From Halorubrum sp. F4 (lineage in GTDB: Archaea > Halobacteriota > Halobacteria > Halobacteriales > Haloferacaceae), in NCBI RefSeq assembly GCF_027257195.1, contig NZ_JAPDFS010000002.1, forward strand, positions 582,750-646,749: a DNA stretch of 64,000 bases. Reading direction: 5' to 3'. A model generated the notes under the pieces. That model searched no databases. It was not told the origin of the DNA and was given only the letters and a program-made list of their open reading frames with translations. Each line of letters starts with the position of its first letter. Position 1 is the stretch's first letter. Shown here piece by piece: positions 19,579-28,337 of the stretch. The translations under genes and the position numbers were made by a program.

Positions 19579-21588
19579 TCAGATCTGTCCGACGGCGACG
19601 AAGCCGACGTAACAGGCCGCCACCAGCACGCCGGAGTGTAGGAGCGCCCCGTACCTGCCGCGCGCGGCGGCCCCCGCGAACCAGCCCGACGCGAGCATCG
19701 TCGCCTGCGCGACCACGTAGAGACGGAACCGCTCCAGTTCGGGGTGGACGATCGCCGGATCGAACGGTGCGTCGAGTGCCGCCGCGAGCGCGAGCAGACG
19801 GTCCGTCTCCATCACGCCGGCGTTGATCGCGGCGACGGCGGCGCCGACCGACAGGGCCGCGACCCACCCGACCACGACGTACCGGCGCATCGCCTCGCGG
19901 AGCGCACGCTTCTCGTGGGTCAGCCGGTCGACCTCGACCTGGAGCGTCTCGAACACCTCGTCGACGGTGCTCCCGGCGTTCAACGCCCCGGCGACCAGCC
20001 CGATCGTCCGGACGGCGAGGGGCGTCCCGACGCGGTCGACGAACCGGTCGAGCGCCACGACACGCACGTCGCTGCCGGCGGCGGAGGCGTCACGAGGGGC
20101 GACGGTCGGGTCGGCGTCGTCCGCGTCGGATGCACCCTCGGCGGCGGTCGTCAGCGAGAGGTTGAACGCGAGGTCCGCGACGTCGTCGGTCAACACTCCG
20201 AGGTCCGTCTCGCGGGCGGCGGTCGCGACGGCCTCGGGAAACGGGCGGCCGACGGAGGCGTGCGCGGAGACCGCGTAGACGAAGTCGGCGACCCGGCGGT
20301 CCTTCGCGTCGTCGATCCGTCCGCGCCGGGCAGCGACCAGCCCGACCGGGAGCGCGAACGCGACGTACGCCAGAAGCGAGACGTTCACGAGCGGGTACCC
20401 TGCGTACGCGAGAGCCACGGCCACGGCCGCCGCGGGGACGGCCGCGACGAGCGACGCGCTGGCCGGGTTCGACGGCGCGGACGCGAGCACTCCGCGGAGG
20501 CTCCCCGGACGGCGGTAACTCGTGCGAGAGTCGACGGGGCGGAGCGCACCGGTGGCGGCGATGCCGACGAGTCCGACCGCGAGCAGGAACCCGACGGACG
20601 CGTAGACGGCGACCGCTCGCGGCGAGACGGTACCGACCGGCGTGTCGACCAGCCGCGAGAGGTCGGGGGCGAACACGCTCGTCACCGTGACGGCGACGAC
20701 GAGCAGCGCGGGCAACACGAGCACGAACACGAACAGCTCCGCGATCGGTTTCAGGTATCGCCGGGCCCGCGTCCGGGCGTGTTCCTGTCGATGCGCCAGG
20801 AGGCGGCTCTCGGTGCGGAGGAACTCCGCGAGCGCCTCGTCGCCCGCCGAGACGTGCTGGCGGAACTTCAGGAGGAACGGCGCGAGGAGGTCCCGCGAGG
20901 GCGTGTCGCGGGCGACGCGGCGGAGCCCGGCGTCGAGACTCCCCGTCAGTCGTGCCGCGTTGAGCGCCTTCCGAAACGACACGGCCGCGCCGCCGTAGGC
21001 GTCGTTCTCGGCGACCTTGGCCACGAGCGTTCGAGCGTCGTCGCTCCCCGAGGAGAGCGCGTCGAGGTACCGGACCGCTCCGGGGAGCGTCCGCTCGATC
21101 CGCGCCCGGCGCGCGGAGACCAGCCACCGGAGGTAGAGCCCGCCGGCATGGACCGTCGCCCGCTTGGCGAGGAGGCCCGTGACCGCCGACAGACCGACCG
21201 CGAGCGCGACCGGGGGTGGCGTGGGAACCGCGAGCGACACGCGCGTATCGAGGCCGTCCGCGAGGGCGGTCGAGACCTCGGGAGCGACCGCGCTCGCGAG
21301 GAGAACCGCCGGGAGGGCCGCCGCGAGACCCACGACCCAGGAGAGCGCGTACGTCCGCGCGAGGTACGTCTCGAAGTCCGTCGACGGGTCCGCCCCGCGG
21401 TAGCGCTGTCTATCGACGTCGTGGCGACGGTCGTCGGCGTGCCGGGCGAACAGCGCGTGGAGGACCCGATCGAATCCGGCGAGCCCGTCGAATCCCTCGA
21501 GCCCGGCGGGTCCGGAGGATCGCGCGTCGCCGGCTCCGGTTCGGGTCTCCCGTTCGACGCGAGCCGATCCCCGCGTGTCGCCGCTCAC
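19579..21588 (-). CDS. pilC: Archaeal type IV pilus membrane core protein PilC (T2SSF domains)
   Basis: 669 residues. Two type II secretion F domains are visible as an internal duplication: VRYLDALSSGSDDARTL...FRKALN..RLTGSLDAGLRRVARD (about 165-215) and VADFYAVS-like VADFVYAVSAHASVGRPFPEAV (about 435-455), each followed by helical hairpins; about nine hydrophobic segments in total. PilC/TadC/FlaJ-type proteins form the membrane platform on which prepilins assemble. The N-terminal GTG/ATG region overlaps the end of pilB by 4 bp, so the two are one transcription unit. No prepilin gene follows immediately. Confidence 0.88.
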   Translation of the reverse strand: MSGDTRGSARVERETRTGAGDARSSGPAGLEGFDGLAGFDRVLHALFARHADDRRHDVDRQRYRGADPSTDFETYLARTYALSWVVGLAAALPAVLLASAVAPEVSTALADGLDTRVSLAVPTPPPVALAVGLSAVTGLLAKRATVHAGGLYLRWLVSARRARIERTLPGAVRYLDALSSGSDDARTLVAKVAENDAYGGAAVSFRKALNAARLTGSLDAGLRRVARDTPSRDLLAPFLLKFRQHVSAGDEALAEFLRTESRLLAHRQEHARTRARRYLKPIAELFVFVLVLPALLVVAVTVTSVFAPDLSRLVDTPVGTVSPRAVAVYASVGFLLAVGLVGIAATGALRPVDSRTSYRRPGSLRGVLASAPSNPASASLVAAVPAAAVAVALAYAGYPLVNVSLLAYVAFALPVGLVAARRGRIDDAKDRRVADFVYAVSAHASVGRPFPEAVATAARETDLGVLTDDVADLAFNLSLTTAAEGASDADDADPTVAPRDASAAGSDVRVVALDRFVDRVGTPLAVRTIGLVAGALNAGSTVDEVFETLQVEVDRLTHEKRALREAMRRYVVVGWVAALSVGAAVAAINAGVMETDRLLALAAALDAPFDPAIVHPELERFRLYVVAQATMLASGWFAGAAARGRYGALLHSGVLVAACYVGFVAVGQI

Positions 21589-24140
21589 GGCGCGCCTCCG
21601 GGTCGGGCGTCGCCGTCGTCCTCCTCGGCCGGTCCGCCGGGACCGCTCGCGTGTCGCATCGATCGCGCGGCGCGTTCGACGGTCGCGGCCTCGTCGGCCC
21701 GGAGGTCGGCGAGGAACTCGAACAGCTCGTCGAAGTCCGTGAGACCGTCGCGGACGAGGTATTCCACGTACCGGTGTTTGGCGGCGAACTCGGTTTCGAC
21801 CGCGTCGAGGTCGCGGTCGGTCCGCTCGGCGAGGCGCGCAAGCGCGTGGAGCCGCCTGCCGCCGTCGGGATACGAGCCCGCGGCGTCAGCAGTCGGCGCG
21901 CCGTCCATCCGGAACCCGCCCGCGGGGTCGCGCCACGCGACCGTGTTGTAGTGGATGGCCGTGTCGTCGCGCTCCACGACGCCGGCCCCGCCGTGTTTCG
22001 GGTCGCCGGTCCGGCTCCGGGTCGCGGCCGGATCGAGCGCGTCGTACTCGGCGGGCGAGAGCGGCTCGACCGCCTGCGCGACGTACCGGTCCCCGCCGAC
22101 CTGTCGCGGGAAGACCACGAGATCGACCTCCCGGAGCAGGTACGGTGGGAGTCCCCGCTCTATCGCGCGATTGACGAGCGTCTCCACGTCGGCGGCGTGC
22201 GTGGTGCCGACGACCCCGTGGCCGGTGTTCACCGTCTCGGCGAACGTCTCGAAGCTGGCGGGCGTGTTGATCTCGGCTATCACCTCGACGTCAGGATTGA
22301 GGTAATTGGCCTCCGTCATCAGCGTCGCCATGCTCACCGCCTTGTAATCGTTCTCGTGGTCGCGGGTCGTCAGCGCCACGCCGGTCTCGTGGGGGAGTCG
22401 CACCTCGCGGGAGCCCTCGTCGATGGAGATCGGGCGGTCGTCGAAGGGGATGAAGGGCATGTGGGCGTTCATCAGCGTCGTCTTGCCCGCCCCCGTCGGT
22501 CCCGCGAAGAGGACGACGCCGCGGTGTTCGTACAACAGCCAAAGCAGGGTGACGAGCTCAGTCGAGAGCGCGTCGCGGGCGATCAGGTCGACGGGCGTCA
22601 GCGGGTCGGCGGCCTGCTTCCGGATCGAGACGTGCGGGCCGTCCGCGGAGATGACCGGCAGCGCGACCGCACACCGGACGGTCTCCGGGACGTCGTCGAC
22701 GTCGAGGTTGACCTTCGCGGAGGGCGTCGAGGCGTTCAGCTCCACGCCGTCGCGGGCCGCCAGTCGCGTGACGACGTCGACGAACCGCGACTCGTCCGTG
22801 AACGCGAGGTTCGTCGGGATCCGGCCGACGCCGGCGAGCGGATCGAGCCCGCGCCGGTCGTCCGCGGCGGCATCACCTCCGGCCACGGCGTCGTCGTCTC
22901 CACCGACCCCTCCGCCGGCCCTTCCGGCCATCGCGTGGCCTCCGAGAGCCATCGCGTCGGCGTCCCCGTCGGCCGCCGCATCGCTCCCGCTCGCCGCCCC
23001 CGACAGCACCGCGGGACGGGGAACGACCTTCACGCGCTCGCCGACGCGGTTGGCCTCGACGTCCTCCAGATGCGGGTCACGGATCGGGACGGTGAGGACG
23101 CCCTCGCCGACGAAGTCGCGGAGCACGTAGTAGACGAGGTCGTCGAGTCGATCGGCGGCGTACGTCGGATCGACGCTCGGGGTAACCAGGCCTCGATCGG
23201 CGAGGACGCGCCGGGCGCGGTCGCGGACGGTCGCCACCCATCCCCGCGGGGAGGAACCGCCGGCGAGCCGGCGCGAGAGGTACCGGCGAGCGTGCTCGGC
23301 GACGAACGCGGTCCGGTCGTCTATCAGTCGATCCACGGGAGTCTCCCAGATCCGGCGCTCGCAGTCGCGGATCAGCGCCTCGTCGCCCGGGAGGAGGTCG
23401 GGCTCGAGCGCGGCGTACTTGGTCTCGAAGGCGTCGGATCCGAGCAGCCGCTCGCGGTAGATCACCACGTCGACGGGGTAGCCGGCGAACTCGACGGCGT
23501 ACCGCGCGAGCCGCTCGCCGGCGACGCGCTCGACGTACTCGGCGTCGGCGTCGATCCCCGTCTCGAGCGGGGCGAACGCGTCCGTGTGGACGACGAGCTC
23601 GCGGTCGTCGCCGACGTCGGCGACCTCGATCCGGCCGTCGAGCGCGACCGGCGTGAGGTCGCCGAACAGCCGGAGCTCACACAGCGCGTGGTGGTCGATC
23701 CGGCGGCGAGCGGCCGCGGTCGCCGAGAGCAGGCGATCGAGCACCCGCTCGTACTTCGGCTCGAACCCCGCGTCGGCGCGCTCGACCGCGCCGGCGCGGG
23801 TGAGCGGCCGACGCCCGCGGGCCGCCGAGAAGTGGTCGCGGACGGTCCGGAGCGCGCGCTCGTCGGCCGGCGAGAGGGGCGGTTCGCGGACGTCGTAGCC
23901 GAACCGGCCGCCGTCGCGTTCGCGGATCGTCGCGACGACGCCGGGCGCGGACTCGTACTGCGCGCGGACGTCCGGGGCGTACCAGGCTTCGGGGTCGTCG
24001 GGCGGGACCGGCGCCGGAACCGAGGCGTCGTCGTCCTCGGAGCCGCCGCCGATCCGCAGGGTGGGACTCGTCACGTCTCTGCGCTCGTCTGATCGACTCG
24101 AGTCCGACGATCCGACATAACTATTCTCCTTTACTGACAT
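21585..24140 (-). CDS. pilB: Archaeal type IV pilus assembly ATPase PilB (GspE/VirB11 family)
   Basis: 851 residues. The secretion ATPase core occupies about 350-720: Walker A GPTGAGKTTLMNA near 546, an Asp box around RPISIDEGSREV (about 570), the Walker B/His box VEVIAEINTPASFE and GHGVVGTTHAADVETLVNR (about 615-650). The first about 330 residues are the N-terminal domain found in halophile PilB, interrupted by a Gly/Ala/Asp-rich low-complexity insertion (about 385-425). It powers pilus subunit extrusion in adhesion. An inverted repeat (24145-24160) sits directly upstream of the ATG. Confidence 0.9.
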   Translation of the reverse strand: MSVKENSYVGSSDSSRSDERRDVTSPTLRIGGGSEDDDASVPAPVPPDDPEAWYAPDVRAQYESAPGVVATIRERDGGRFGYDVREPPLSPADERALRTVRDHFSAARGRRPLTRAGAVERADAGFEPKYERVLDRLLSATAAARRRIDHHALCELRLFGDLTPVALDGRIEVADVGDDRELVVHTDAFAPLETGIDADAEYVERVAGERLARYAVEFAGYPVDVVIYRERLLGSDAFETKYAALEPDLLPGDEALIRDCERRIWETPVDRLIDDRTAFVAEHARRYLSRRLAGGSSPRGWVATVRDRARRVLADRGLVTPSVDPTYAADRLDDLVYYVLRDFVGEGVLTVPIRDPHLEDVEANRVGERVKVVPRPAVLSGAASGSDAAADGDADAMALGGHAMAGRAGGGVGGDDDAVAGGDAAADDRRGLDPLAGVGRIPTNLAFTDESRFVDVVTRLAARDGVELNASTPSAKVNLDVDDVPETVRCAVALPVISADGPHVSIRKQAADPLTPVDLIARDALSTELVTLLWLLYEHRGVVLFAGPTGAGKTTLMNAHMPFIPFDDRPISIDEGSREVRLPHETGVALTTRDHENDYKAVSMATLMTEANYLNPDVEVIAEINTPASFETFAETVNTGHGVVGTTHAADVETLVNRAIERGLPPYLLREVDLVVFPRQVGGDRYVAQAVEPLSPAEYDALDPAATRSRTGDPKHGGAGVVERDDTAIHYNTVAWRDPAGGFRMDGAPTADAAGSYPDGGRRLHALARLAERTDRDLDAVETEFAAKHRYVEYLVRDGLTDFDELFEFLADLRADEAATVERAARSMRHASGPGGPAEEDDGDARPGGAP

Positions 24141-24160: not shown

Positions 24161-24239
24161 CGCGGCGATCCGCGGGCCATCGATCCGGGACGTCAGAGCC
24201 CGAAGAGGTTTGTCGTCGGGGGCGGAACCGGAGCGGTAG

Positions 24240-25148
24240 ATGCTCTCGGGCGAGGACCTCAGGCGGCGGGCCGCCGCGCTCGACGGCTCCGTGGTCGTCT
24301 GCGGGATCGGCGGGGACGCCGGCGTTCCCCCCGGGAGGTTCCCCGGCGCTCGCACCGCGACGATCGGGGAGCTCCTCGGGGAGGGCGGGAGCGGAGACGC
24401 CGACGATCACGACGCCATCGAGCCCGATGCGGTCGCCGCCGTGCTGGTCGTCGTGGGTTCGTCCCTTGAGGCGGATCGGGTGCACGACGCGCTCGACGAA
24501 CTCGGCGCGCTCGACGCGTTCATCGTCGCCGTCGCCCCGGCGGGCGTCGCTCCCGAGTCGCTGGCGGCGGTACGCCGACGAGTCGACGCGACGCTACTCG
24601 CCGGAGAGGGAGGTCCCGTGGAGGCGATCCGGACGTTCCTCGAGGCGGTGCAACGCCCCGGCTTCGTCAACCTGGATCTGGCCGACGCCCGGACCGCCCT
24701 CTCGATCGGCATCGCCGCGGTGGGGATCGGAACGGCGGGAACCGACGGGTCCCCGACCGCCGACCGCGACGCGCCCGCGCTCGCGGTCGACGAGGCGTTC
24801 GATCGGTTGCCGGAGGGCGTCGATCCCGCGGACGCGAGCGCCGCGCTCGTCGACGTGGTGGTCGATCCGGAGACCAGCATCGCCGCCGCGACCGACGCGA
24901 TCGCGGCGGTCCGCGAGCGGATCGACGCGGACGCGAACGTGATCTGGGGCGGCGCGGTCGACGAGTCCGTCGAGGACGAGATCGGCGTCCGGGTCGTCGT
25001 CGCGGACGTCGAGTACGCCCCGCCGCTCGCCGGCGGCGACCCCTGTCCGCGTTGCGGGAACCCGCTGTCGACGTACGCGTTCGGCGCGCGCGAGACGCTC
25101 TCGTGTGACGGCTGCGGCTACTCCGGAGTCGCGGTCCGTCGGGGGTGA
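24240..25148 (+). CDS. FtsZ/tubulin-superfamily-like protein lacking GTPase motifs, with C-terminal zinc ribbon
   Basis: 302 residues. From about 70 to 265 it reads like the later part of FtsZ: LGALDAFIVAVAPAGVAPESLAAVRRRVD..LLA, then FVNLDLADARTAL...GIGTAG (FtsZ: N-D-FADVRT...GIG), and finally ERIDADANVIWGGAVDESVEDEIGVRVVVA, very close to the FtsZ C-domain strand-loop (DANIIWG..ID..L.DEIRV). The glycine-rich T4 loop (GGGTGSG) is absent: its place reads VVVGSSLEAD. The C-terminus has two CxxC pairs (CPRCG, CDGCG, about 264-290), a zinc ribbon. GTP binding or hydrolysis is therefore unlikely. Divergent from pilB. Function unknown; membrane or cytoskeletal scaffold is inference. Confidence 0.7.
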   Translation: MLSGEDLRRRAAALDGSVVVCGIGGDAGVPPGRFPGARTATIGELLGEGGSGDADDHDAIEPDAVAAVLVVVGSSLEADRVHDALDELGALDAFIVAVAPAGVAPESLAAVRRRVDATLLAGEGGPVEAIRTFLEAVQRPGFVNLDLADARTALSIGIAAVGIGTAGTDGSPTADRDAPALAVDEAFDRLPEGVDPADASAALVDVVVDPETSIAAATDAIAAVRERIDADANVIWGGAVDESVEDEIGVRVVVADVEYAPPLAGGDPCPRCGNPLSTYAFGARETLSCDGCGYSGVAVRRG

Positions 25149-25271: not shown

Positions 25272-28200
25272 ATGGCGACCGATCCGGCGCAGGGCGAGGA
25301 GTTCGCGTTCGACACGTCGGCGGCGGCGCTCGGCCACGACCGGCCGGACGTGCCCGCCTACCGGGCGCTCGCGTCGGACCTCCGCGAGCGCGTCGACGGC
25401 GAGGTCCAGTTCGACGAGTACGCACAGGTGCTGTACGCGACCGACGGCAGCATCTACGGGGCGCGCCCCGCGGGCGTCGTCTCGCCGCGGTCGGTCGAGG
25501 ACGTCCGGGAGGCGATGCGGGTCGCCGCCGACCACGGCGTGCCCGTGCTCGCGCGCGGCGCGGGCTCCTCGCTCGCCGGCCAGACGGTCGGACCCGGCTG
25601 TGTCGTCCTCGATTTCTCGCGACACATGGACGGGATCGTGGCGGTCCGTCCCGACGACCGCCGCGCCGTGGTCGAGCCGGGCGTCGTCCAGGACCGCCTC
25701 GACGACCGCCTCGCGGAGGACGGGTTGAAGTTCGCGCCCGATCCCGCCTCCTCCGCGCGGGCGACGGTCGGCGGCGGGATCGGCAACAACTCCACGGGCG
25801 CACACTCGGTCCGGTACGGGATCACCGACGCCTACACCGAGGAGCTGACGGTGGTGCTCGCGGACGGTTCGCTCATCCACACCCGCGAGGTCGTCCTCGA
25901 CTCGCCCGAATACGAGGCGATCGTCGCGGGCGAGGAGGGCGGCGAGCGGGAGGCGGCGCTCTACGAGACGGTGCGCGGGCTCGTCGAGGAGCACGAGGCG
26001 GAGATCGAGGAACGGTACCCGACGCTCAAGCGGTCGGTCTCGGGGTACAACCTCCACAAGGTCGTCTACGAGAACGACGCGGGCGAGGAGGTCATCAACC
26101 TCTCGAAGCTGTTCGTCGGCGCGGAGGGAACGCTCGGCGTCGTCGTCGAGGCGGAGGTGTCGCTCGTCACCCGCCCCGAGGAGACGGCGCTGGCGCTGTA
26201 CCCCTTCGACTCGCTTCAGGCGGCGATGCGGGCGGTCCCGGAGGCGCTCGAGTTCCCGGTGAGCGCAGTCGAGCTGATGGACGACGAGGTGTTCGGGCTC
26301 GCGGCGGGCTCCCCGCAGTTCGCGGAGTACGCCGAGCCGATCCCCGACCGCGCCGCGGCGGCGCTGATGCTCGAGTGGGACTCCGAGCTGGTCGACGACT
26401 TCGAGGCGGCGGTCGCCGAGACGAACGCACGCTTCCTCGAGGGAGGCGACGCCTTCGACGTCATCGAGGCGTACGCCGAGTCGGAACAGGCCGACCTCTG
26501 GAACCTCCGGAAGGCGGCCATCCCGCTCCTCATGAGCATGGAGGGCGACCCGAAGCCGTACCCGTTCATCGAGGACGCGTCGGTGCCGCCCGAGGAGCTC
26601 GCGGAGTACGTCGGCGAGTTCGAGGACGTGCTCGACGCGCACGACACCTCCGCGGCGTACTTCGCACACGCCGGGAGCGGCACCCTCCACATCCGCCCGA
26701 TCCTCTCGCTGAAGGAGGAGGAGGGGATAGAGAGGATGCACTCCATCTCGGAGGACGTCACCGATCTCGTGTTGGAACACCACGGTGCGTTCTCGGGCGA
26801 GCACGGCGACGGACTCGCCCGCACCGAGTTCAACCCGAAGATGTACGGCGACGAACTCTGGAGCGCGTTTCAGGAGCTCAAGTCGGCGTTCGACCCCGAG
26901 TGGCGGCTGAACCCCGGGAAGGTCGTCTACGTCGACGACGAGACCGCCGCCGAGCGGGGCTATCCGGAGACCGCCGCGGACACGGACATGCGCGAACACC
27001 TCCGCTACGGGGCGGAGTACCAGTCGATCGAGCCGCAAACGACGCTGGACTTCGACGACGAGGGCGGGTTCTCCCACCTGGTGGAGCTGTGTAACGGCTG
27101 TGGCACCTGCCGGGAGACCGACTCGGGCGTGATGTGTCCGACCTACCGCGCCTCCGGCGAGGAGATCCAGACGACGCGTGGGAGGGCCAACATGCTCCGG
27201 GCCGCCATCAGCGGCGACCTCGACGACGACGAGATCCACTCCGACCGCTTCCAGTCGGAGGTGCTCGACCTCTGTGTGGGGTGTAAGGGATGTAAGAGCG
27301 ACTGCCCGACCGGCGTCGACCTCGCGAAGCTGAAGGCGGAGGTGAAACACGAACACCACGAGACGGAGGGCGCGGGGCTCCGCGAGCGGCTCTTCCGCGA
27401 CATCGATCGCCTCTCGGCGATCGGGAGCACGCTCGCGCCGCTGTCGAACGCGGCGACGAAGCTCCCCGGGACCCGACGGCTCATGGACGCCCTCGTCGGC
27501 ATCGCGCCCGACCGCGAGCTGCCGACGTTCCGCTCCGAGAGCTTCGAGGAGTGGTTCGCGTCGCGTGGCGGCTCGACGATCCCTCCCGCGGACGCGACCG
27601 ACACGGTCGTGCTCTTTCCGGACACCTACACGAACTACAGCTATCCGGCCGCCGGGAAGGCCGCCGTCGCGGTGTTGGAGGCGGCGGGAGTGCGCGTCGA
27701 GGTTCCCGACGACCTCGCGGCCTCGGGCCGGGCCGCCTTCTCGACCGGCTTTCTCGACGTGGCCCGCGAGCGAGCCGAGGCGAACGTCGAGGCGCTCGCC
27801 CCGCACGTCCGGGAGGGGGCGTCCGTCCTCTTCGTCGAGCCCTCCGACGCGGTGATGTTCCAGGACGAGTACCTCGACCTCCTCGACGGCGAGGCCGTCC
27901 GGGCGGTCTCGGCGGCCGCCTACGGAGTCTGTGAGTACCTCGACGTCGGGCGGGTCGACGACCGGTTGACGTTCGACGCGCCGGCCGAATCGCTGACCTA
28001 TCACGGCCACTGTAACCAGAAGGCGACGGACAAGGACCACCACGCGGTCGGCGTGCTCAGACGCGCCGGCTACGAGGTGAACCCGCTCGACTCCTCGTGT
28101 TGCGGGATGGCCGGCTCGTTCGGCTACGAGTCCGAGCACTACGACCTCTCGAAGGCGATCGGTCGGATCCTGTTCGACCAGGTGGCGGAGAGCCCCGGGG

Positions 28201-28337
28201 AGACGGCCACCGCGCCGGGCGCGTCCTGTCGCTCGCAGCTCGGAGACCGCGACGGGGAGTCGACGCCGCCACACCCGATCGAGAAGGTCGCCGAGGCGGT
28301 GACCGGGGCGGCGAACGCGACCGCCGCCGGCGATTGA
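25272..28337 (+). CDS. FAD-linked oxidase / Fe-S fusion (D-lactate or glycolate-type dehydrogenase)
   Basis: 1021 residues, a GlcD-GlcF style fusion. FAD_binding_4 domain (about 60-280) with GVPVLARGAGSSLAGQTVGPG; FAD-oxidase C domain (about 290-560) including YFAHAGSGTLHIRP and SGEHGDGLAR; two ferredoxin-like clusters, CNGCGTCRET.. near 606 and CVGCKGCKSDCPTG near 668; then CCG (heterodisulfide-reductase-like) motifs HGHCNQKA near 910 and SSCCGMAGSFG near 943. It oxidises a 2-hydroxyacid and passes electrons to quinone. D-lactate is most likely, but D-2-hydroxyglutarate or glycolate cannot be excluded. Single gene; promoter contains an inverted repeat. Confidence 0.88.
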   Translation: MATDPAQGEEFAFDTSAAALGHDRPDVPAYRALASDLRERVDGEVQFDEYAQVLYATDGSIYGARPAGVVSPRSVEDVREAMRVAADHGVPVLARGAGSSLAGQTVGPGCVVLDFSRHMDGIVAVRPDDRRAVVEPGVVQDRLDDRLAEDGLKFAPDPASSARATVGGGIGNNSTGAHSVRYGITDAYTEELTVVLADGSLIHTREVVLDSPEYEAIVAGEEGGEREAALYETVRGLVEEHEAEIEERYPTLKRSVSGYNLHKVVYENDAGEEVINLSKLFVGAEGTLGVVVEAEVSLVTRPEETALALYPFDSLQAAMRAVPEALEFPVSAVELMDDEVFGLAAGSPQFAEYAEPIPDRAAAALMLEWDSELVDDFEAAVAETNARFLEGGDAFDVIEAYAESEQADLWNLRKAAIPLLMSMEGDPKPYPFIEDASVPPEELAEYVGEFEDVLDAHDTSAAYFAHAGSGTLHIRPILSLKEEEGIERMHSISEDVTDLVLEHHGAFSGEHGDGLARTEFNPKMYGDELWSAFQELKSAFDPEWRLNPGKVVYVDDETAAERGYPETAADTDMREHLRYGAEYQSIEPQTTLDFDDEGGFSHLVELCNGCGTCRETDSGVMCPTYRASGEEIQTTRGRANMLRAAISGDLDDDEIHSDRFQSEVLDLCVGCKGCKSDCPTGVDLAKLKAEVKHEHHETEGAGLRERLFRDIDRLSAIGSTLAPLSNAATKLPGTRRLMDALVGIAPDRELPTFRSESFEEWFASRGGSTIPPADATDTVVLFPDTYTNYSYPAAGKAAVAVLEAAGVRVEVPDDLAASGRAAFSTGFLDVARERAEANVEALAPHVREGASVLFVEPSDAVMFQDEYLDLLDGEAVRAVSAAAYGVCEYLDVGRVDDRLTFDAPAESLTYHGHCNQKATDKDHHAVGVLRRAGYEVNPLDSSCCGMAGSFGYESEHYDLSKAIGRILFDQVAESPGETATAPGASCRSQLGDRDGESTPPHPIEKVAEAVTGAANATAAGD

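Follow-up and report, generated by a model that had tools for sequence, protein, structure and literature searches.

A haloarchaeal FtsZ-family protein with a collapsed GTPase domain and a zinc ribbon, a candidate regulator of FtsZ

The window (the whole stretch of 64,000 nucleotides of Halorubrum sp. F4 DNA analyzed here) encodes a protein of 302 amino acids, given the working name PFZ, that by its sequence is almost certainly a degenerate paralogue within the FtsZ family. Sequence comparison indicates that half of the interface by which FtsZ binds FtsZ is kept (the side bearing loop T7) and half is erased (the side that binds the nucleotide), and a zinc ribbon stands where the FtsZ tail would be. 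Our favored reading, to which we assign a probability of about 0.5, is that an FtsZ paralogue, most like FtsZ1, has turned into a one-faced, non-polymerizing regulator of FtsZ. Because the GTPase domain that defines FtsZ is not recognized in it, PFZ is filed here in the FtsZ superfamily and not as FtsZ, hence the description FtsZ-derived pseudo-GTPase with a zinc ribbon.

Results

Gene and domains

The gene of PFZ (24240..25148, forward strand, as are all its features below) begins with ATG, immediately preceded by an in-frame TAG (24237-24239). The ORF list of the window supplies the two neighbors, both outside the system considered here. Upstream, on the reverse strand, is the gene named pilB in the first-pass annotation, which would encode the type IV pilus ATPase (21585..24140). 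The two ORFs are divergent, as that annotation had said, and 99 bases apart. Downstream, on the forward strand, is a gene (25272..28337) whose product is presumably an FAD-linked oxidase resembling D-lactate dehydrogenase.

The first-pass annotation, which had only the sequence and a list of its open reading frames to go by, described an FtsZ C-terminal domain, a T4 glycine loop replaced by VVVGSSLEAD, and two C-terminal CxxC pairs. All three were borne out. The Pfam FtsZ_C domain (PF12327) matches residues 157-257 (24708..25010) with an e-value of 7.8e-11 (42.6 bits, cut-off 27), and it matches all 30 intact copies of the family considered below. The NCBIfam ftsZ model (TIGR00065) matches residues 128-258 at 8.1e-16, with a score (58.3 bits) below its equivalog cut-off of 295.2. 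The best phmmer match in the PDB is an FtsZ, 1w58 (3.7e-12, residues 127-258), that of M. jannaschii. Among the models of Pfam and NCBIfam, those of FtsZ match PFZ and none of CetZ or tubulin does. In alignment, VVVGSSLEAD (residues 70-79; 24447..24476) stands opposite VFVTAGLGGGTGTG of FtsZ1, at the position of the FtsZ T4 loop GGGTGTG, and the T4 glycine loop is absent. The CxxC pairs, C269/C272 (CPRC) and C289/C292 (CDGC), belong to a zinc ribbon at residues 266-293 (25035..25118), matched by the Pfam model zf-FPG_IleRS (residues 266-292, 2e-5, above cut-off) and, below cut-off, by two other zinc-ribbon models at the same place.

A scan of the organism's own genome with the FtsZ GTPase domain (PF00091) found six places, PFZ not among them, while a scan with FtsZ_C did match the PFZ locus. 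The six are read as FtsZ1, FtsZ2, three CetZ-like paralogues, and one match below cut-off.

Extent of the family

A search with the window protein found PFZ in 16 of the 53 genomes of its own genus, one of them carrying a remnant. Across the class, sampled at one genome per species, 392 genomes of Halobacteria were scanned with a first profile of 20 rows and then with a C-terminal profile, giving 30 intact copies and the one remnant, distributed over 6 of 86 genera. The boundary is clear: with the C-terminal profile, the remnant scores 7.3e-23, and the next matches in the 392 genomes, from 1.9e-12 on, are stretches whose likeness is confined to the zinc ribbon. A scan of the phylum, sampled in the same manner, found PFZ in 6 of 294 genomes, every one of them in its own order. 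The PFZ family is thus bounded and haloarchaeal.

Named records were scanned with a single pattern, taken from the IWG region. Fifteen of the best 80 of 174 relatives fall in the PFZ family: ten from Halorubrum, one from Halobellus captivus, three from Natronomonas, and one from Halomicroarcula. Halorubrum aidingense JCM 13560 and Halorubrum cibi DSM 19504 are among the organisms named by the scan, and the best 80 include no Haloferax. The other 65 of these 80 serve as a control and read as ordinary FtsZ. The T4 motif is present in 62 of the 65 (the exceptions are two truncated frames and a GGGTATG), and a double-CxxC ribbon is present in none of them. A viral or plasmid origin was considered and rejected, as tblastn gave no match to the family in 50,697 phage and 72,556 plasmid records; one viral contig, set aside, matched query residues 44-72 only, which are the zinc ribbon.

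Every genome with an intact copy (n=30) has three matches to the family profile at E <= 1e-20. These are read as two FtsZ proteins and PFZ, so PFZ is not a replacement for FtsZ, and its patchy distribution (31 of 392 genomes) indicates that it is dispensable. One genome of the same genus (G254), in which the window protein finds no PFZ at E 1e-19, has five matches at E <= 1e-20. The surplus may be either extra FtsZ paralogues or contamination (listed at 4%).

The remnant was left out of all alignments, and one further intact member (L107) was placed in a single one (A4).

A collapsed GTPase domain

PF00091 matches none of the 30 intact copies at an E of 0.01, and one might therefore ask whether the N-terminal domain (residues 1-125; 24240..24614) derives from FtsZ at all. 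A domain of unrelated origin was rejected on comparison of profiles. When the family profile of the N-terminal domain alone was compared with all PDB chains, the five best matches were FtsZ (E 0.001-0.016), followed by a designed binder (0.045). In hhalign the domain is colinear with that of haloarchaeal FtsZ (84.9%, E 6.4e-6), as is to be compared with 99.7% (E 2.3e-25) for the full family profile, and the profile of alignment A2 finds FtsZ in the PDB at 2.3e-36 over profile positions 4-247. Isolated Pfam matches, among them Asparaginase_C (0.00024) and TPR_10 (0.026), each in one of the 30 copies, were discarded because they are not family-wide.

What is left of the domain may be described in the terms, and with the approximate element limits, customary for FtsZ structures. 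Most rows of the family alignment retain strands S1, S4, S5, and S6. Absent are most of H1, H2-S3, H3, and the T6/H6 stretch, along with about half of T5 and about half of the nucleotide-side half of helix H7; the absence is common to many copies for the N-terminal half of H7. Loops T1, T3, and T4 are partly present but rewritten. For example, strand S1 and the remnant of T1 read VCGIGGDA in PFZ (residues 20-27; 24297..24320), aligning with VVGCGGAGGN of FtsZ1. Over loops T1-T6 (gaps counted as mismatches), the identity to FtsZ1 is 9% for the PFZ family, as against 64% for FtsZ2. Neither the T1 motif nor GGxTG occurs in any of the 30 copies, which also answers the objection that the first-pass annotation had raised against itself, that homologues with an intact T1 or T4 loop had been misaligned; a search for such cases among the 30 found none. 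From these comparisons of sequences and profiles, the N-terminal domain of PFZ appears to be a collapsed FtsZ GTPase domain, with core strands left and nucleotide loops gone.

A conserved T7 face

The other side of the protein presents a different picture. The T7 (synergy, catalytic) loop, GFVNLDLAD (residues 141-149; 24660..24686), carries the triad N-x-D-x-x-D (N144, D146, and D149), invariant in 30 of 30 copies and equivalent, as mapped by motif, to N208, D210, and D213 of Staphylococcus aureus FtsZ. In PMC8936486, from which the contact regions of the GTPase-activating face were also taken, D210 and D213 are described as holding the precatalytic water and N208 as bridging to the ions of the nucleotide; the changes N208L, D210N, and D213N each suppress assembly. 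The strand S9 region, ANVIWGGAV (residues 232-240; 24933..24959), contains two more residues invariant in the family alignment, W236 and G237.

For comparison of PFZ with FtsZ, 17 loci were tried, 10 of which yielded a sequence by motif (7 were used in alignment A5, 4 in the comparison of segments, and 10 in the tree). In T7, the identity to FtsZ1 is 71% for the PFZ family, as compared to 67% for FtsZ2. For the face as a whole (T7, H8, S9, and H10), the identity is 42% in both cases, and for the remainder of the C-terminal domain it is 30% for the PFZ family and 44% for FtsZ2. The signal in the face comes mostly from T7 and S9; H8 (32%, against 38% for FtsZ2) and H10 (26%, against 35%) show no special conservation. 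Only 7 of the 111 columns in the C-terminal domain are invariant, and three of them are the T7 residues. The chance of finding the triad among the invariants is 1.6e-4 over the 111 columns, or 0.0023 over the 46 columns conserved in FtsZ, as defined by four FtsZ sequences (three FtsZ1 and one FtsZ2). The retention of T7 and S9 is only partly independent evidence, since few parts of any FtsZ are better conserved than these two.

The invariant catalytic triad indicates FtsZ as the partner of PFZ, and we consider the odds even that PFZ acts on FtsZ through T7. It may be instead that PFZ has left the world of FtsZ, T7 and the C-terminal domain persisting as a stable fold and the ribbon and N-terminal domain doing an unrelated job, such as sensing a ligand or DNA. 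A T7 loop can be kept for the sake of folding, and T7 of S. aureus FtsZ, according to PMC8936486, coordinates a K+ ion inside a single subunit. The variable gene context and the patchy presence of PFZ would also fit such a job, as would the loosely held N-terminal domain (below), but against it stands the invariance of the catalytic N, D, and D in a domain where so few columns are invariant. We regard this explanation as unlikely.

As to which FtsZ gave rise to PFZ, the C-terminal domain is 36% identical to FtsZ1 and 28% to FtsZ2. Moreover, several distant members of the family start with MTTDEEL...VLGCG, to be compared with MTDEEL...VVGCG of haloarchaeal FtsZ1, suggesting an FtsZ1-like ancestor. 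In a tree of the C-terminal domain, one branch (support 99/98) separates the PFZ family from the ten FtsZ rows. The exact root is uncertain because of the long branches at that split, which drew a warning from the program.

Selection and decay

Ratios of dN to dS were calculated by the method of Nei and Gojobori for 13 hand-chosen pairs, which share sequences and are not independent. Over the full length of the gene, the ratio ranges from 0.14 to 0.57, and over the C-terminal domain from 0.15 to 0.47. The N-terminal domain ranges more widely, from 0.12 to 0.91, and exceeds the C-terminal domain in 9 of 13 pairs; within the genus of the window it lies between 0.44 and 0.91 in eight of nine pairs and is 0.37 in the ninth. 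The zinc ribbon ranges from 0 to 0.59, a value reached in one pair; the other 12 do not exceed 0.36. This looks like the pattern of a working gene whose N-terminal domain is loosely constrained. Conservation in 30 intact copies (that of the window included), combined with purifying selection, puts the family beyond chance.

Could PFZ nonetheless be an FtsZ pseudogene in decay, without function? One copy has indeed decayed. The remnant (G205, contig C51, 658-1056; loci L023 and L052) has two in-frame stops and has lost its N-terminal half, and it still sits between pilB and the dehydrogenase gene, so that we see in it a loss that is probably recent. The relaxed N-terminal domain might be taken in the same sense. 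That the family as a whole is decaying is hardly credible, given intact frames in 30 copies from six genera, T7 triad and zinc ligands invariant in all, and the range of dN/dS over the full length.

The zinc ribbon

The ribbon (CPxC...CxxC) is found with its four cysteines in 30 of 30 copies. It occupies the place of the FtsZ C-terminal tail, which takes part in anchoring by SepF. SepF is described as the anchor of FtsZ in archaea in PMC8178401. Perhaps PFZ is an adaptor, a terminal or side subunit on FtsZ filaments whose ribbon recruits DNA, a membrane protein, or an enzyme, assembly going on uninhibited. The invariant cysteines and the low dN/dS of the ribbon in most pairs agree with this, as does the occurrence of ribbon-only stretches in many haloarchaeal genomes, which suggests that a binding module was probably added to PFZ. 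Against it, no gene near PFZ is common to all clades in the 30 regions considered, and in one pair the ribbon reaches the ratio of 0.59. We find the adaptor doubtful. That PFZ caps or brakes filaments, and is not an adaptor, is possible, if a little short of an even chance.

The ribbon-only profile matches in Halobacteria (e.g., G246:C1:406065-406163) often lie in short open frames, some 60-70 amino acids long, and the fused ribbon may have come from such a stretch.

Gene neighborhood

The first-pass annotation supposed that PFZ might regulate the adjacent pilus machine and proposed a survey of pilB neighborhoods across haloarchaea. The regions and genomes covered here gave no sign of linkage conserved beyond one subclade. 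In the clade of the window (seven intact copies, including that of the window, plus the remnant), PFZ is flanked by pilB and the D-lactate dehydrogenase-like gene. In terms of the 20 regions fetched, pilB is next to PFZ in six with intact copies and in the one with the remnant, to which the window is to be added, all of them in one subclade of the genus; neither pilB nor the dehydrogenase gene is present in the other 13. Seen from the side of pilB, the gene is present in 47 of the 53 genomes of the genus, as compared to 16 of 53 for PFZ. Where the sequence upstream of pilB extends to 1 kb or more (13 loci of the genus), six loci, all from the same subclade, have both PFZ and the dehydrogenase gene, and seven have neither. 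Membership in a type IV pilus regulon, which conserved linkage to pilB would have indicated, was accordingly rejected.

A scaffold that works with PilB and PilC, as proposed for pilus-linked CetZ2, has in its favor the adjacency seen in the one subclade and a published linkage of cetZ2 to the pilB2/C2 regulons (PMC9856176). The absence of pilB from 13 regions and of PFZ from seven pilB loci weighs against it, along with the fact that PFZ is matched by models of FtsZ and not by those of CetZ or tubulin. The scaffold is very improbable. Of the original proposal, what survives is an FtsZ relative that has lost its GTPase motifs and become fused to a zinc ribbon; its connection to pili does not.

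The search for a partner covered 30 regions, with ORFs chosen by length and acidity. No neighbor is common to all clades among the ORFs listed. Some of those listed are repeated in two to four clades, most of them at a distance of kilobases from PFZ: one about 80% alike in Natronomonas-type regions and L053, oxidoreductase-like ORFs in BolA/fumarase-type regions and L054, a transporter-like pair in L045 and L243, and others that are generic (ABC, sensor, UspA-like), all these names being provisional. L240 holds a piece 44% like the dehydrogenase of the window. The recurrences are read as chance or the effect of family size. In one case (G306), the only one among the 30 regions listed, an ORF that reads as FtsZ1 (L243, 13751-14926) lies about 4.5 kb from PFZ.

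Discussion

How might a one-faced, non-polymerizing FtsZ paralogue regulate FtsZ? In FtsZ filaments, each subunit lends its T7 to the GTPase site of the following one, and monomers, it is argued, join by their GTP face (both from PMC8936486). PFZ would dock, by its T7 face, on the GTP face of FtsZ1, whether that FtsZ1 is a monomer or the last subunit of a filament. Lacking a nucleotide face of its own, PFZ would permit no further subunit to follow. It would then either hold monomers back from assembly or cap a filament at the end that exposes the GTP face. The hydrolytic water is positioned by residues of T7, so PFZ might also act as a GTPase-activating subunit, with the zinc ribbon perhaps tethering or regulating it. 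Taken to its full extent, this would make PFZ an anti-subunit that completes, in trans, the FtsZ1 GTPase site, fires hydrolysis, and terminates or disassembles the filament, the ribbon serving as a handle for control or targeting. We offer so specific a mechanism tentatively and think it rather less than likely. If it is true, PFZ would be, to our knowledge, the first GTPase-activating cap to have come from FtsZ. Archaeal FtsZ has few known regulators.

Capping is not without precedent. MciZ of Bacillus is a peptide unrelated to FtsZ. As described in PMC8936486, it caps and shortens FtsZ filaments, much as is proposed for PFZ, but it binds the bottom, T7-bearing face of FtsZ, whereas PFZ would use its own T7 to bind the opposite, nucleotide face. 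The best functional analogue, so far as an analogy can go, is ARC3 of chloroplasts, which PMC5877594 presents as a chimera derived from FtsZ; it carries an additional domain and is a negative regulator of FtsZ ring assembly. ARC3 is a plant protein and its added domain is different; the likeness is drawn from that description.

Closer to home, PFZ aligns colinearly with haloarchaeal FtsZ1 and FtsZ2 across the FtsZ fold as far as the tail, and shares with them FtsZ_C, the T7 motif, and the WG motif of S9. It differs from both in lacking the T1-T6 nucleotide loops and the FtsZ tail, in having the ribbon, and in standing on a separate side of the tree. FtsZl1 and FtsZl2 (Makarova and Koonin 2010, PMC2875224) resemble PFZ in being divergent members of the superfamily that occur alongside normal FtsZ. 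Both are described there as retaining a nucleotide-binding core, in FtsZl1 as far as helix H5, which PFZ does not retain, and FtsZl1 has no recognizable FtsZ C-terminal domain, which PFZ has. By that description, FtsZl1 is close to a mirror image of PFZ.

The first-pass annotation knew of no described family with this architecture, and we likewise found none in the open-licence literature. A survey of archaeal tubulin-superfamily proteins speaks of "non-canonical" members with a patchy distribution (PMC9856176), and so PFZ may have been sighted earlier without being named. One large FtsZ/tubulin phylogeny began from PF00091 (PMC9871819). Surveys of this kind would be expected to miss PFZ, and similar half-FtsZ proteins may therefore exist elsewhere. 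With half of its FtsZ interface erased, PFZ offers a natural means of testing how T7 activates the hydrolysis of GTP and which end of the filament grows.

CetZ is of the same superfamily as PFZ, and some cetZ2 genes lie beside pilB/C (PMC9856176). The three CetZ-like paralogues in the genome of the window match PF00091 and not FtsZ_C, the reverse of PFZ. One of these (L005; contig C34, 44669-45082, reverse strand) has GVGGAAGGG as its T4 loop in place of GGGTGSG and matches PF00091 with only 51 bits, possibly another weakened nucleotide site.
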